Below, one piece after another: positions 6,345-24,427 of a stretch of DNA of 24,427 nucleotides. The notes under the pieces are model-generated. The model did not search any database and had not been told where the DNA came from. It saw only the letters and a program-made list of their open reading frames with translations. A program made the translations under genes and the position numbers. The stretch lies in the NCBI GenBank assembly GCA_001574975.1, contig KQ965817.1, forward strand, positions 4,693 through 29,119, given 5' to 3'. The stretch is from Gonapodya prolifera JEL478. Its lineage: Eukaryota > Monoblepharomycota > Monoblepharidomycetes > Monoblepharidales > Gonapodyaceae. Each line of letters starts with the position of its first letter. Positions within the stretch are counted from its first letter, which is position 1.

Positions 6345-7690
6345 TCACTTCGCCTTTTCAAAGCCCGCTTCGAAAGGCTCTTCCAGCGTGGGACCGTCGT
6401 CAGCCGCCTTCTCTCCCAGGGCGGCTTGTTGACGCTTCCACTCCTTGTACTTCTTGTCGGTCCGGAACAGCCAGTCCCAGAAGGGAGTATACGCGGCGTA
6501 GTTGCCCACGTTCTTGTACTATTGTGCGCGATAACGTGTGTTAGCCTCGACCTGGAAGTCAATCGACATCACCCTCAGAAGAACTTACGTGGTGGTAATC
6601 ATGGAACTCTGGGTGGTTGACGACATTGTACGGGTTCAACGGGACGACGTAGCCGCTGTGGATCTGGAGGTCCATGAAGATGTTCTGCACGGTCCAGACT
6701 AGGTACTCGAACAGAGTCATGCCGGTGAGCATTGCAGACAACTGAGAGAGAAAAGCGGCCACTATCTCAACCACGTGGAAGAAGGCGCAAAGAAGGGTGA
6801 TTGAGAGCTCACGTTGGCGCAAACCATGATGCCGAACGATTCCTCCCAGTTGTTCCACGATGTGGCACCGACGTTTGTCACCTTGAACTCGTGGTGCTGC
6901 TTGTGGTATTTTTTGTAGAACGAGGGAACTTCGTGCCTGAGAAGAGGGGGAAGAGAGCGTTAAGCTCGGTCCAAGCTTGTGAAAATCGATCGACGGAGGA
7001 AGAACTCACAGCGCACGGTGCTGGACGTAGAAGAAGAAGTCGTTGAAAAGGTACGCAAGAACTTGGTTCTTCACTAACGTCGTGAATGAGGGGAATTCGG
7101 TAATACTATGCGATGGCGGTTTCCACATGAAACATCAGTAGTGAGCAAACGCATCGGACGAAACTGCCGCATCTTCCACTCACCTCTGGCGCTTATAAAA
7201 GAACACGAAAAATGCCCCTACCATGCGTCCGATACCAAGCGTACGGGTGGTGGGGTTCAAGAGCCCCGCCCATACGCGTTCGTTAAGGTCGGTGGGCGCC
7301 CACTTGTCCGGGTGGAGTTTGTACTGCGGCATAAGGTTGTTGCGATCGACGTAGCGGAAGAGGGTGTACGTGGGCCAGAAGAAGGTCTGTCGGATCACGC
7401 AGCAGCCGTGTGGAGCGTGGTGGTGGTGAGCCGTTGCAAACAACACCCCCTTGCGAGCAGGCATCACTCACGTGAAAAGCTGCTTGGACAGTCAGCGTGT
7501 GCACAAACGCATCCGCACCCGCCGCTCCCACGTAGGGCACCGCCGCCGACTGCAGCGTCTTTGTCAGCAGCGTCCAGTTGTTTCCAAGCGCCTCCCACGC
7601 CGTCGGCGGGGCATTTCCCAGCAACTTCACGACGTGGCTGCCGACGGTGTCGAGCGCGGACTCTGCGGTGGATTTGATGGCGTCGAGCAT
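6345..7690 (-). CDS. Fatty acid hydroxylase-superfamily (sterol-desaturase-like) enzyme, copy A
   Basis: Membrane di-iron oxygenase of the family that includes ERG25-type methylsterol oxidases, ERG3 and cholesterol 25-hydroxylase; the substrate cannot be told from sequence. Exons (minus): 7472-7690, 7184-7386, 7010-7105, 6813-6936, 6589-6741, 6345-6518, giving 322 residues. The three histidine clusters are present: HRALH (170-174), HKQHH (184-188) and HDYHH (261-265), with accessory His242 and His257. Hydrophobic stretches flank the boxes (for example VGAFFVFFY and AYLFNDFFFY), as expected for an ER-membrane enzyme. The tail KNVGNYAAYTPFWDWLF resembles the end of the FA-hydroxylase domain. 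The start at ATG 7690 is chosen because it lines up with the neighbouring copy; an in-frame ATG at 7759 also exists. It forms a head-to-tail pair with copy B, about 250 bp apart. Confidence 0.9.
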
Positions 7691-7940: not shown

Positions 7941-9436
7941 CTACTCATCCGCCTTGAACCCTGCCTCGAAGGGGTCCGCCGTGGTAGGGCCGTCGTCCGA
8001 GATGTCGCCCTTGGCCTTCAACTCGGCCTGGCGCGCGACGTACTTGCGCCAGTGCTTGTCCGTGCCTAAGAGCCTGTCCCAGATGGGAGTGCCGGCGGAG
8101 TAGTTGCCGACGTTTTTGTACTGGAATTGGAGGTGAGCGTGAATTTGATGTGGAGTAGAGGGCACGGGTCAATGTCGAGACGGCAAACAGCCAGACAGCC
8201 GAGACGGTGCACTCACGTGGTGGAAGTCGTGCCACTCCGGCGGAGACACGTAGTTCAGTGGGTTATAAGGAAGACGGTATCCGATGTGGACTTGCCTGGG
8301 GGGTTGATCGTACACGTGAGTAAACCCAGTAAATTCGGATGGCACGCACCATCGCAAGTACTCACGCGTCGTACACTGTACCCATCGCTATCCAGAGCAT
8401 GTGCTCAAAGAGCGTCATCCCCGTCAGCATGGACGCAAGCTGAATACCACCATTGTCATCACAGTCACCCGGTACACCATCAAAACTTCAACTCACGTTG
8501 GCGCAAACCATAATCCCGAACGACTCCTCCCAGTTGTTCCAAGACGTCGCTCCAACGTTTGTCACTTTGAATTCGTGGTGCTGCTTGTGGTAGAGCTTGT
8601 ACCAAGAGGGGACTTCGTGGCTGCAAAGACCGACTGATGTGAGAACGCATCGGGGTGTCACGCCGCACTATAGCACTCACAGAGATCGGTGGAGTGTGTA
8701 GAAAAATATGTCGTTGAGTATGTATGCGACGGCATGGTTGTAGAGCAGCTTTCCCAGTGTGGGCACGGCGGTGACGCTGCATCGTGGGCACGATATTAGA
8801 TCGAGCCCACCCCGGTCGCCTCCCCACCCCCAACCCCGCACTCACTTCTGCCTCCCGTAAAAGAACAAGAAGAACGCCAACATCCCGCGCGCGTACCCTT
8901 TGAAGGGCGCCTGAGCGTTGGTGAGCCCGTCCCAGACGCGGTCGTTGAGATCGGCCTTTTCGAACTTCCCGGGGTGAAGTTTGTACTGAGGGAGGAGGTC
9001 GTGCCTGTCGATGTAGCGGAAGAGGAGGAACTGGGGGCGTAGGTCGTGTGGAGATTGAAATTTTCATTTGAAAACGGAATTGGCCCAACCCGACGCTTTC
9101 GATCGACTTACCCCGGGCCAGAACGTCGCCTGTGCGAGACAAGGAAAGAGTATGGTCATTTCGAAATCGCCAAAGCCCCAAATATCAGAGGTGCGATCGG
9201 ACTTTCAAGTTCGGCTGCTGACTCACATGGAACACGACTGTCGACGATGTGGTGTGCACGATGGACTTTGCCAGAGCCTCTCCCATTTGCGGAGTCAAGA
9301 CATCGAGGAAACTCGTGGCGAATGAGGTCCAGGAGGAACCAACTGTGTCGTAGGCACTAAACACTACCGACGACGCCTCGGCAAGAACGTCGAGGATCGG
9401 GGTGGAAAGTTCGGTGAGCGTACTGAGGAGTGGCAT
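7941..9436 (-). CDS. Fatty acid hydroxylase-superfamily (sterol-desaturase-like) enzyme, copy B
   Basis: Paralogue of the adjacent copy A. Exons (minus): 9227-9436, 9112-9129, 8846-9030, 8681-8776, 8497-8620, 8366-8439, 8217-8295, 7941-8120, giving 321 residues. Histidine boxes: HRSLH (167-171), HKQHH (181-185) and HDFHH (258-262), so the di-iron site is complete. Between boxes 2 and 3 the block NVGATSWNNWEESFGIMVCA is identical in both copies, while the first ~70 residues differ strongly. Five intron positions are shared with copy A and two are private to B: one after the 18-nt exon 2 (ATFWPG) and one inside the third-box exon (at DAQVHIGY). The start is ATG 9436, matching copy A in length; the frame is open further upstream. 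It is clean of stops and frameshifts and therefore probably active. Confidence 0.9.
9112..9129 (-). other. 18-nt micro-exon of hydroxylase copy B
   Basis: Exon of six codons (A-T-F-W-P-G), preceded by acceptor tctcgcacag and followed by donor gtaagt. It is required to keep the alignment with copy A (TFFWPT) at equal length and in phase 0. Confidence 0.8.
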
Positions 9437-15869: not shown

Positions 15870-18800
15870 CTATTGCTTTCCAGCAGCAGCAAGCTCCCTC
15901 ATACGGTTAAGAGCGCTACCGGCTTTGAACCACTCAATCTGTCCCTCGTTGAAGGTGTGGTTCACGGTGATCTCCTCAGCGGAGCCGTCCTTGTGCCTAA
16001 TGTTGAGTTTCAGGGGTACGCCAGGGGTGAAGGTGGTAAGACCAACGATGTCGATCTTGTCGTCTGGACGGATCTTCTCGTAGTCCTTGGGGTTAGCGAA
16101 GGTGAGGGGGAGGACTCCCTGCTTCTTAAGGTTTGTCTCTGGGTGTGATAAGCGAGGGAGGGTAAGAATCACTTCTTTCAGGCAAGCACCTCAAACCGTA
16201 ACTCACCGTGGATGCGGGCGAAGGACTTGACCAAGACAGCAAAGCCACCAAGGTGCCTCACTTCGAGAGCAGCGTGTTCACGGGAAGAACCCTCTCCGTA
16301 GTTCTCGTCACCGACAACAATCCAGGGTTGGCCCTTGGCCTGGTAGTCGCGCGCAACTTTGGGGACCGGCTCGAACTCGCCGTTGTACATGTTCCGGATG
16401 GAGTTGGCCTTCTCGTTCTCAATGTTGATGGCACCAATGAGCATGTTGTTGGAGATGTTGTCAAGGTGTCCACGGAACTTCAACCAAGGACCGGCAGCAC
16501 TGAAAGATATGAAAGATGAGAAATTCGAGCGCGTCTCCACAGAGTGCAGCAAGCAAAGTACACTCACGAGATGTGGTCGGTGGTGCATTTACCTTTAACC
16601 TTGATCAGAACAGCGAGATCCTTGGGGTCCTTTCCGTCCCAGGTCTTGAACGGCTCGAGAAGCTGAAGACGGTTGCTCTTGGGGTCAACCGAAACCTGGA
16701 CCTTGGACCTGTCGGCGGGGGGAGCCTGGTAGGTGTCCACACCCGGGTCGTATCCACGGGGAGGGAGCTCGTTGCCGAACGGAGCGGCGAACTTGAAGTC
16801 TTTGCCGTCTGGGGTCTTGAGCGTGTCCGTGGCGGGGTTGAAGGTGAGGTCTCCGGCGAACACGAGGGCGGTCACAAGCTCGGGGGACGCGACGAACGCG
16901 TGGGTGGCGGGGTTACCATCGTTACGAGCAGTGAAGTTGCGGTTGTACGAGGTGATGATGGAGTTCTTGGTGCCCTTGGGGACGTCCTGGCGATCCCATT
17001 GACCGATGCAAGGACCGCAGGCGTTAGCTGTTGGAATCGTCAAAAAAGTGTTAGAGGAGTTCAATTTCGTATCCGATGGAGGTCTACGTACCAAGAACGA
17101 CTCCACCAGCCTTCTCGAAGACTTCCATCTGACCGCTGTAATGGAATGTCATGAGAAACCGTCCAGCCATTACCGAGCATGCGTTTACTCACTCCCTCTC
17201 AATGGTGGCACGGATCTGCTCCGATCCGGGCGTGATGGTGAAGCCAGCCTTCGCCTTCAATCCAGCAGCCATGGCCTGCTCGGCCAAGCTGGCGGAACGG
17301 GCCATGTCCTCGTACGAGGAGTTGGTGCATGACCCGATGAGGCCGACCTTGAGCTCGGCGGGCCATCCGTTCTCCTTGGCGGTGGCGGCGAACTTGGACA
17401 GAGGGGTGGCGAGGTCGGGGGTGAAGGGGCCGTTGATGTGGGGCTCGAGAGTGGATAAGTCGATCTCGATGATCTGGTCGTAGCTATCGAGCCACAGTTC
17501 AATTGTCCGTCGTACAAGTGAATACGGCAATACTCACATGGCGCCCTCGTCAGCCCTCAAATTGTGCGACCACGATTCGGCAAGTCCTCCGATGGCGCTG
17601 CGGTTCGTCGCGGCGAGGTAGTCCTTCATACGTCCGTTGAAGGGGAACAAGGAAGTGGTGGCTCCGATTTCGGCACCCATGTTGCACACAGTGGCCATGC
17701 CCGTGCAGGAGAGAGAGTCCACACCGGGTCCGAAGTACTCTACGATGGCACCAGTACCACCCTTGACGGTGAGGATTCCGGCAACCTTCAGGATGACGTC
17801 TGGGGATAATGTCGGTGTTATAACACTTCCGACCCCGATCGCCCACCAAAATCGCTCCAAACTCACCCTTGGCGGAAGTCCAGCCCGAGAGCTGTCCAGT
17901 GAGCTTGACACCGATGACCTTGGGGCACTTGAGCTCCCAGGGCAATCCCGCCATAACGTCTACAGCGTCGGCACCACCGACACCAACGGCGACCATTCCG
18001 AGACCTCCAGCGTTTGGGGTGTGCGAGTCGGTTCCGATCATCATTCCACCGGGGAAAGCGTAGTTCTCAAGGACGATCTGGTGGATGATACCAGACCCGG
18101 GCTTCCAGAAGCCGATGCCGTACTTGGCAGTGGAGGTGGCCAAGAAGTCGTACACTTCACGGTTGATGTCGTTGGCGCGGGCCAAGTCGGCGACACCGCC
18201 CTTCTGGGCCTCGATCAAGTGGTCGCAGTGGACAGTGGAGGGAACAGCGACGGTGGGAAGACCGGCGGACATGAACTGGAGGATGGCCATCTACGTACGG
18301 AAACAAGATTATTGTTAATTGGGATTCCCCGCGGAAGCCGTTTTAACCGTACCTGGGCGGTAGCATCCTGGCAAGCAACACGATCAGGGCGGAGCTTGAG
18401 GTAAGACACGCCGCGCTCAATGTCCTGGTTGACGGGGTCGTCCAAGTGGCCGTAGACAATCTTTTCAGCCAAGGTAAGGGGCTTCTGGAGCCTGTTGGGA
18501 GGGTCAAGTCGGTCAATATGAGGAAAGAATGATTAATAGGTATTTGGTTCCCCGGGTTCACAAAGGCCCAGATTCGGGGGATTTGGGCCAGAACGCCTCA
18601 GGTCCGTCTCTCAATTATTGATCGAAGTCGTTAAAATGTTCCTTCGCTCGTCTCTGCCTCATTCTTTCGGAAATCTCACCTGTCCCTCACAACCTTCAAG
18701 TTGGCCTCCATCTTAGAGTAGTTGATGTATTTGTCACTATCAAACGCCGACAGAGCGACCTTGGCGTCCTTTGCGACGGTCGCCATGGGGCGGAAAGAGG

Positions 18801-22101: not shown

Positions 22102-22943
22102 ATGTCTCTCGCCTCTACCTCCCTCCGCGCCTCTCCGCGTCTTCTCTCCTCTCTGGCCCCAACCACCTCCCGTCTCGCCCCCCTCCTCGCCCGCACCTAC
22201 GCCAAAAAGAAACCCGAGGAGCAACCCGACCCCGTAACCTCGCACATCGCCGGCACGGTCGACTCCACCTACGGAGGGGGTGTAAAGTCCGGCGGCGGCG
22301 CGTTCGGGAAGAAGCAGGCTGCCCAGGAGGATCAGTGGGCCTACCAGCACGACAAGGAGCTGTTCGAGCGTCTGGCGAAGAAACTTAAGGCTGAGGTGGC
22401 GTACCAGCCTGATTCCCCCGTGGTCGCCTCTGGGGATGCTGCTCCGGCTGCTCCCGCTCCGGAACACTCGGCTGGTTCTTCGTCTCCCATTCTCTCGGGC
22501 GGAGCCGGCGCGGCGTCGGGCTCGCTTGGGAGGAAGCAGGCTGCGCAAGAGGGTCAATGTGGGTGCTTGGAAAACGTCCCGTCCTGAAGAGTCCAGTTTT
22601 CTGATGACATCTGAACCTCTGCCCCATCTACTCATCGGCGCCAACGACGTTCTCCCTCGTACGTCACTCTTCGATGTTCTCATTTTCGGACCCCATTGAC
22701 GAACGGCCACATCGTGAACTCATCGGAACTCAATCACCTCGCGTCCACTCGGCATCGGGGTTCAACACTACTTCTTCAACCCTCGGAATATCATGGCTAT
22801 CCTCCACTCACCCCGTTGCTGCCACCAACGTTTGGTGCTTCAATAACCCTACTCGACTACCAATTTTTGTCTGGTGAACATTTCGTCACGAAGACATCTA
22901 CGAGCACGACAAGGAGCTCCTGTCCAAGCTCAAGAAGCCATAA
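22102..22943 (+). CDS. Mitochondrial F1Fo-ATP synthase inhibitor (IF1) family protein with two IF1 motifs
   Basis: IF1 binds the F1 part of ATP synthase and blocks wasteful ATP hydrolysis when the membrane potential falls. Exons: 22102-22552 and 22894-22943, giving 166 residues. The N-terminus (MSLASTSLRASPRLLSS... to LLARTYAKKK) is Ser/Arg-rich without acidic residues, a typical mitochondrial presequence. Motif 1: GGGAFGKKQAAQEDQWAYQH then DKELFERLAKKLK, the inhibitory helix. An Ala/Pro/Ser-rich linker follows, then motif 2: GSLGRKQAAQE joined across a 341-nt intron to DIYEHDKELLSKLKKP and stop. Joining GAG-G to AC-ATC restores AAQED exactly as in motif 1. The donor (G/gtcaat) is weak. If the intron is retained, the protein ends 10 residues later at TGA (22585-22587) with motif 2 truncated. 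Ordinary IF1 has a single motif and is usually under 100 residues. Confidence 0.8.
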
Positions 22944-23159
22944 GTTACGGTTCAGTGTGGCATTCTGAGCAGTAAGGTCTCGTGTTAGATGGCATGGAGG
23001 AGATTAAGAAATATATTGATCAATGATCACGGATGAAATAAAGTTACAATGGTGCTTTTGCAACTGACTTGATGCTCCAGTCCGAATTCCCCCTGCGCAC
23101 GTAGATTCCACGGATTGGGGGAGGGGGGAAGGTTAGCTCTGCTCAGACTGAAACATCCA
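22944..23159. other. IF1-like gene 3' flank
   Basis: Short AT-rich 3' region (with aagaaatatattgatcaatgatc and aaataaagttac around 23005-23048) that probably holds the polyadenylation signal. No gene seen. Confidence 0.35.
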
Positions 23160-24313
23160 TTCCAACAGACATGGGCAAGAATTTCGAAAGAAAAGAGCGT
23201 GGAAAAGAAGAAGCCCGAGTCAGTCGCGCCGCGCGCCAACCGCCCTGGTGGGTTTTCGAGGGTCGCGCCCGTTGAGTTCCGTCTCACCGCACCGTTGGCA
23301 GCTCCGTCACTGCCATCTCTACCTCCCGAGATTCTATGGGATCGCATTATCGTCAAGTACCTGTCGCCACGCATGGCGTTTCGGACGCTCCCCCGGGTGC
23401 GCAAAGCGCAGTGGTCTCTCGTCAAGTCCCACACCGGAGCGACTCCCTGTCGCCGTTTATGTGGTCATGTGCCGCAAATTACCGAGGAATGAACCCTCGC
23501 CCAGGGTTCCAAGTTATGCGCAGAGAAGGTGGTCGCCACGCAATCCAGCCATTGGACGAGTTTGTTGGGGATCTCTACACCACAGCCGCGGAGCTCTCCA
23601 GAGACGGGTTTGCCACTCCGCGGTCAGTCACGACTCCCCATATTGAGGAAGAGAGCTGATGGGACGGCATTCATCACCTTGGATCGAGCGGGAGCCGAAG
23701 CATTGAAAGCCACTGACGTCCCCGTAATCTGCGGTGCCACATCTGCTCTGAGAATCTTCTGGAGGAGTCCAGACAAACACGAAGAAGTTCCCCCTGGGTT
23801 ATGCTTGACAACCTTCGCTCCCTCATCACTGACGCCATTGAGGGCTTGACGGCGCATCGTGGCCGCCATTGACACCCTCACCTTTTTTGAGCCTTTTATG
23901 CCATATGACAGCGAAGACTGTCTCTCAGTTTAGTGCCTTGGGCAAGTCCTCCAACCCCTGAGGGTGCATGTTGATGAAAAGACGATCGCAAACCACTTCT
24001 CTGGTGGTCCACTCCAGAGTGCTAAACAGCTCCATGTGCAAATTCTCAACGCAGCCAAGCAGCTCCACAAAATTTCCCTTGATGTTATTCCGTCGGCAAC
24101 CCTGTGATTCTGGCTAAGTTTGTCAAGAGACTGATTGACTCAGAACCGAGCCCAGACGGATCAAGTGACGGAAATCAGGAGATTTCAGTCAAAAGAAGTC
24201 GTCATTTGGAGAGATTTACACTGGATGGCCAGTTTGAGTATCTGAAGCCGCTTCCGGTCGTTGTATTGCAAATTCCCTCAGATACTGTTTCTGACATATT
24301 CTTCGCCATTTAA
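23160..24313 (+). pseudogene. F-box-like protein gene remnant
   Basis: After an acceptor-like site (ttccaacag, near 23168) a frame encodes a basic stretch and then LPSLPPEILWDRIIVKYLSP followed by MAFRTLPRV, a recognisable F-box core, before a stop at 23490-23492. Further pieces in other frames look like continuation of an F-box/LRR-type protein: HAIQPLDEFVGDLYTTAAEL (about 23530-23600), DGTAFITLDRAGAEALKATD (about 23655-23715), KTIANHFSGG then AKQLHVQILNAAKQLHKISL (about 23970-24080), and HLERFTLDGQFEYLKPLPVV (about 24205-24260). Moving between them needs frameshifts, one of them at 24095-24110, where SATL runs into TGA but LAKFVKRLI continues one base off. No single spliced model works, so I call it a damaged gene; unusual introns are the alternative. 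It is in the opposite orientation to the F-box/LRR remnant at 4945-6146. Confidence 0.5.
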
Positions 24314-24405: not shown

Positions 24406-24427
24406 ACGGGTCGGGTCGGGTCGGGTC
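24406..24427. repeat. GGGTC pentamer tract at the right edge
   Basis: Four consecutive copies of gggtc preceded by a c, running into the window end. This is a simple-sequence repeat and not the canonical fungal telomere unit TTAGGG. Its full length cannot be seen. Confidence 0.8.

Follow-up and report, generated by a model that had tools for sequence, protein, structure and literature searches.

An IF1-family protein with two inhibitory motifs in one predicted chain in Gonapodya prolifera

A predicted IF1 chain with a duplicated inhibitory motif

In a 24,427-nucleotide stretch of the Gonapodya prolifera JEL478 genome (hereafter the window), we identified a gene whose predicted product belongs to the IF1 family of ATP synthase inhibitors and carries the inhibitory motif twice. 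Well-studied IF1 proteins carry this brake motif once per chain, and the chains are often paired. We propose, at a probability of roughly 45%, that the gene encodes a mitochondrial IF1-family F1-ATPase inhibitor in which a head-to-tail duplication has put two inhibitory helices into one chain, with the second motif acting as a tethered second F1-binding helix.

The gene lies on the forward strand. Coding exon 1 (22102..22558) is an open frame from the ATG at 22102. In the spliced translation it opens with a presequence-like segment (residues 1 to about 33) and runs through motif 1 and a linker into motif 2, of which it encodes the first half. Direct reading of residues 1-38 finds four arginines (R9, R13, R24 and R31) and no acidic residue, a composition that resembles a mitochondrial presequence. 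A Gly-rich arm, STYGGGVKSGGG, sits N-terminal to motif 1, AFGKKQAAQEDQWAYQHDKELFERL (22300..22374; residues 67-91), which corresponds to bovine positions 21-45 according to the Pfam IATP profile and a gapless alignment to IF1 chains in the PDB. The linker that follows is rich in Ala, Pro, Ser and Gly (22405..22521, about residues 102-140). Motif 2 is encoded in two pieces: spliced translation and comparison with motif 1 place SLGRKQAAQEGQ and the first base of Tyr153 at 22522..22558, while its second half, IYEHDKELLSKLKKP followed directly by TAA, lies at 22894-22943. Between them is a proposed intron of 335 nt (22559..22893; GTGGGTG...CACGAAG). Coding exon 2 (22894..22943) supplies the end of Tyr153, IYEHDKELLSKL, the residues KKP and the stop TAA. 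An AATAAA at 23037..23042, 94 nt past the stop, may be a polyadenylation signal. The spliced product is most likely a protein of 168 aa in which motif 2 reads SLGRKQAAQEGQYIYEHDKELLSKL, since the junction at 22558 was the best both in our enumeration of GT-AG pairs and in Pfam scores. An earlier sequence-only reading of the window had described an IF1 protein with two motifs separated by an Ala/Pro/Ser-rich linker behind a single presequence, the second motif being completed only by splicing, and this overall layout is borne out here.

Family membership was assessed with the Pfam IATP profile (PF04568), for which the cut-off is 25 bits. The spliced chain scored 43.8 bits in two separate stretches. 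Motif 1 alone, as a 61-aa piece, scored above the cut-off (29.5 bits, E 1.1e-6), and a 45-aa piece containing motif 2 scored slightly below it (24.0 bits, E 5.5e-5). Searching PDB sequences with the whole chain returned a single match below 0.001, 7dtl (labelled 'PSK', E 1e-4), followed by IF1 chains: 9b0x (0.0023), 9w2r (0.0034) and bovine 2v7q (0.004). Motif 2 alone retrieved 12 rows of similar chains, the best again being 9b0x (0.027). By profile and by most of its key residues, the predicted chain belongs to the IF1 family.

The two motifs are homologous to one another

The best ungapped local alignment of residues 103-168 against residues 1-102 scored 124. None of 2000 shuffles equaled this score, the maximum reached being 50, so a chance resemblance of motif 2 to motif 1 is excluded. 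The 26-residue core alone scores 84; part of the total therefore comes from the preceding Gly/Ser-rich stretch, which extends the alignment along one diagonal. Between the copies, 15 residues and 53/78 nucleotides are identical over 26 codons. Across this small sample, the NG86 method gives a dN of 0.34 and a dS of 0.86 (dN/dS about 0.4), and the lower dN suggests an old duplication that has been under some constraint at the protein level.

This homology bears on the idea that 22894-22943 is part of a separate gene, or a chance likeness. The two halves of motif 2 are 335 nt apart with stops in all three frames between them, as separate genes might be. Against this, the distal half is homologous to motif 1 in both protein and DNA and in register with it, a stop falls directly after the end of motif 2 with AATAAA beyond, and the shuffles leave no room for coincidence; we regard this idea, in either form, as extremely improbable.

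A single splice junction restores motif 2 in register

We enumerated 133 GT-AG pairs with donors at 22401-22700 and acceptors up to 22928, and covered GC donors in a narrower range. The pair formed by donor 22558|GTGGGT and acceptor 22893|22894 was the only one to restore motif 2 in register, gap-free and with 15 of 25 residues identical to motif 1; the next best pair gave 10 of 25. Joining of the two exons is further supported by the halves of motif 2 themselves, both of which stay open and in register and run to a stop. The acceptor at 22904/22905 was rejected, since pairing it with the donors tried cost either the register or the frame. The sequence-only reading had placed the junction at 22552/22894 (donor 22552|GTCAAT). 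That choice drops two motif residues and lowers the IATP score to 36.0 bits for the chain, still in two stretches, and to 15.7 bits for the motif 2 piece. The 'AAQED' it reported in motif 2 was likewise a product of that junction, which alone supplies the D; the genome reads AAQEGQ.

As a yardstick for splice-site quality we used seven introns of the aconitase gene encoded on the reverse strand of the same window. At four of the seven seams several GT-AG pairs were available and were chosen by protein continuity and consensus sites, and three had a single candidate, although at the second seam that held in the narrower range and a wider range gave four pairs. Because sites were picked in this way, comparison with these introns is partly circular. 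All seven donors fit GTRNG, all seven acceptors are CAG or TAG, and the chosen introns measure 54, 57, 62, 64, 67, 68 and 188 nt. With its GTGGGT, the IF1 donor matches the GTRNG pattern, and GTCAAT at 22552 does not. By the same small sample (YAG acceptors, 54-188 nt, n=7), the IF1 intron is an outlier in both its acceptor (AAG) and its length (335 nt). Within 110 nt of its 3' end there is a single TRAY, a TAAC at a distance of 48 nt from the acceptor; matches to YNYTRAY lie 195 and 290 nt away. The 'weak donor' described previously is therefore better stated the other way around: the donor at 22558|GTGGGTG is ordinary, and the weakness is an atypical acceptor in a long intron. Comparison of 22300-22374 with 22522-22570 shows that the intron interrupts motif 2 only. 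At the homologous site motif 1 has CAGTGGGCC, close to the motif 2 donor sequence CAATGTGGGTG, and the donor may thus have arisen from coding sequence at the site homologous to CAGTGGGCC.

On these features, incomplete splicing of the 335-nt intron is plausible. In the unspliced frame a stop occurs at 22585-22587, nine codons past Gln152, giving a chain of 161 aa that retains motif 1 and still passes the IATP cut-off (26.8 bits, one stretch). A splicing switch, as proposed in the sequence-only reading, could be built on this arrangement, with retention of the intron yielding a one-motif protein of 161 aa, removal yielding the two-motif protein of 168 aa, and the extent of retention tuning valency. 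The early stop that spares motif 1 and the atypical acceptor would both suit such a switch; conversely, the two forms and their regulation are predictions from sequence, and retained introns are frequently noise. We consider a regulated switch improbable.

Surrounding genes in the window

A Pfam scan of ten frames in the window gave matches for six and none for four. The matched frames comprise three aconitase pieces, a lactate/malate dehydrogenase C-terminal domain, a D-2-hydroxyacid dehydrogenase NAD-binding domain, which we take to be formate-dehydrogenase-like, and a fatty-acid-hydroxylase-like frame scoring 26.0 bits, below its cut-off of 31. The aconitase gene (16178-18800, - strand) has at least seven introns; introns this short and frequent point to a fungal genome. 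The sub-threshold hydroxylase match lies in the frame at 6559-7005 (- strand), which has QAAPR, DKR, EQLGG and GLRQREL in common, and in identical order, with the frame at 8480-9184 (- strand), itself without a Pfam match; the two are possibly a tandem gene pair. Downstream of the IF1 gene, a frame at 23073-23492 (+ strand) contains the stretch PSLPPEILWDRIIVKYLSPRMAF, presumably F-box-like. At the end of the window, four copies of GGGTC (24408-24427), missed by the tandem-repeat finder, possibly mark a contig edge. Scans of the window reported no tRNA and no tandem arrays.

Both motifs appear to keep most of the F1 contact set

Bovine positions 21-45 were assigned to both motifs by gapless alignment, allowing comparison with the residues by which bovine IF1 binds F1. 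The group 1 contacts of the bovine protein are F22, A28, E30, Y33, F34, Q41, L42 and L45, and further positions with strong effects are A21, R25, K39, E40, A43 and A44, the last two tested as valine (PMC3041923). Written as motif 1/motif 2, the group 1 positions read F22 F/L, A28 A/A, E30 E/E, Y33 W/Y, F34 A/I, Q41 L/L, L42 F/L and L45 L/L, and the additional strong-effect positions read A21 A/S, R25 K/K, K39 K/K, E40 E/E, A43 E/S and A44 R/K; Q27 is A/A and R37 is H/H. Most of the group 1 contacts are kept or conservatively replaced, with F34 in motif 1, F22 in motif 2 and Q41 in both being non-identical. Two further substitutions appear tolerable on the basis of bovine mutants: Y33W raises binding and E31A stimulates inhibition (PMC3041923), which would accommodate W79 in motif 1 and G151, at position 31, in motif 2. 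The doubtful positions are the alanine at F34 in motif 1 and the leucine at F22 in motif 2, as F22A and F34A both belong to the strong-effect class, F34 being termed poorly conserved (PMC3041923). The replacements at A43, A44, Q27, Q41 and R37 also weigh against F1 binding of the usual kind. Judged from these alignments, each motif appears to retain the central contacts and has a single doubtful position, a balance that leaves our estimate for the proposal as it stands.

These residues also speak to whether motif 2 is a vestige, in which case the gene would act as a one-motif IF1 through motif 1, and the motif 2 half would be a duplicate in decay, with inefficient or no splicing of its final exon. 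The AAG acceptor and the long intron would be expected of such a relic, as would the leucine in place of F22, the score of isolated motif 2 slightly under the Pfam cut-off, and the ability of the unspliced form to pass that cut-off (26.8 vs 25 bits). Decay is harder to reconcile with an intact frame and stop in both halves of motif 2, or with the dN/dS of about 0.4 between the copies over 26 codons. Motif 2 also keeps E30, the aromatic residue at Y33, K39, E40, L42 and L45, and at F34 its isoleucine is closer to the bovine residue than is the alanine of motif 1. We judge a vestigial motif 2 to be somewhat unlikely, and favor a second motif that retains the capacity to bind F1.

A proposed tethered second helix in place of a dimerization helix

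Bovine IF1 dimerizes through residues 47-81 (PMC10906535). No counterpart of this region was found in the predicted chain, as judged from reading of the C-terminus and from a model of the unspliced form that is itself of low confidence. In that single-sequence model (mean pLDDT 54.1, pTM 0.20) the longest helix spans residues 76-100 and none follows. With the helix ending near residue 100, a linker beyond it, and motif 2 followed immediately by KKP and the stop, the model and the C-terminal sequence leave no apparent room for a C-terminal dimerization helix of the mammalian type.

Motif 2 takes the place that the self-association region occupies in bovine IF1, which raises the alternative that it is a partner helix. 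In this reading it would pair with motif 1, within one chain or between chains, either as an autoinhibitory hairpin or as a replacement dimerization element, and so regulate motif 1. Bovine oligomers do occlude their inhibitory regions (PMC10906535), so a role of this kind would have a parallel. In sequence, however, motif 2 resembles the F1-contact helix and not the dimerization region, and we find the pairing role quite unlikely.

The sequence-only reading had also suggested that a covalent tandem, as a single chain, could bind two F1 heads. Two motifs in one chain are indeed predicted, but the tandem is not equivalent to a dimer, in which both inhibitory motifs have free N-termini; here only motif 1 does, and motif 2 carries an N-terminal tether of 140 residues. 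Classical IF1 binding places the N-terminal arm in the F1 cavity around gamma (PMC10906535, PMC10066207), an arrangement that a tethered motif does not readily fit. For motif 2 to help bridge two F1 heads, its N-terminal side must therefore lead back out of F1. Two observations make the tether less of a bar. Bovine IF1 lacking residues 1-22 is still inhibitory, if far less effective (PMC10066207), and in Euglena IF1 both termini lie outside F1, the N-terminal part exiting through the betaTP-alphaDP interface (PMC6930080). Bovine F1 can moreover bear three IF1 molecules simultaneously (PMC10066207), so two interfaces of a single F1 are a possible target. As a rough estimate, 40 flexible residues at ~3.6 A each would reach up to ~140 A, a distance that would cover the same F1 and perhaps reach a neighboring one.

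Taken together, these considerations suggest a model for the tethered second helix. After import, cleavage near residues 31-34 would leave a mature protein with a free Gly-rich N-terminal arm ahead of motif 1, which would enter an F1 catalytic interface and block ATP hydrolysis in the usual IF1 manner. On leaving F1 the chain would continue as a flexible linker, about 40-50 residues long, that leads to motif 2, which would occupy the place of the mammalian dimerization helix and bind another catalytic interface, either of the same F1 or of a neighboring F1. Such binding would provide higher avidity and bivalency without homodimerization. The sequence itself, the homology of the motifs, the in-register splice solution, the many contact residues kept and the absence of a dimerization-like segment are direct observations; that the protein is imported, that the intron is spliced out in vivo, that motif 1 inhibits and motif 2 binds, and whether the chain bridges two F1 or rebinds the same one, belong to the model. 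A broader and unlikely extension would be a fungal lineage with a single-chain bivalent IF1, in which the second inhibitory helix has replaced the dimerization helix, a monomer clamps two catalytic interfaces or two F1 heads, and intron retention sets the share of one-handed and two-handed molecules.

Comparison with known IF1 systems

The need for IF1 bivalency is debated, as is the role of IF1 in organizing ATP synthases in cristae. Mammalian IF1 dimers bridge neighboring ATP synthase dimers (PMC10906535), and yeast If1 and Stf1 are dispensable for ATP synthase dimers and oligomers (PMC12238618). A natural covalent two-motif chain would uncouple bivalency from dimerization and from the pH-controlled self-association of the bovine protein. 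Among the matches listed in a search of titles and abstract openings in the open-access literature, we found no two-motif IF1, and the strings 'duplicat' and 'two inhibitory' are absent from the main text of a study that traces how IF1 and related proteins evolved (PMC9317440). Pattern scans for relatives returned 62, 76 and 33 stretches from viral contigs and 242 and 247 stretches from genome contigs, none confirmed by tblastn; these scans covered viral and prokaryotic collections and have no bearing on how frequent two-motif IF1 proteins are in fungi. Should such proteins be common in one fungal group, the variant would be unremarked yet not unique.

The predicted protein shares with bovine and human ATP5IF1 (PF04568) the inhibitory helix FGK..A.E..(Y/W).....KE....L, the preceding Gly-rich arm and a presequence-like N-terminus. 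Bovine IF1 differs in having one motif followed by the dimerizing helix (residues 47-81); the predicted Gonapodya chain has a second motif behind a flexible linker and lacks that helix. Yeast has fungal IF1-type inhibitors in duplicate, If1 and Stf1, but these are encoded by two paralogous genes (INH1 and STF1) instead of one two-motif chain (PMC8984185, PMC12238618). Euglena IF1 offers a precedent for an N-terminal segment that exits F1, as motif 2 would require, and differs in its single inhibitory helix, its proline break and its Euglenozoa-specific path (PMC6930080). Tetrahymena IF1 resembles the predicted protein in that a flexible linker follows its inhibitory helix, and it too would count as a bivalent inhibitor, yet its bivalency comes from a C-terminal four-helix-bundle dimer on ATPTT2 and not from a second inhibitory motif; its authors suggest that this dimerization evolved independently (PMC7583250). 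A two-motif chain would be a further route to a bivalent inhibitor, beside the mammalian and ciliate ones.
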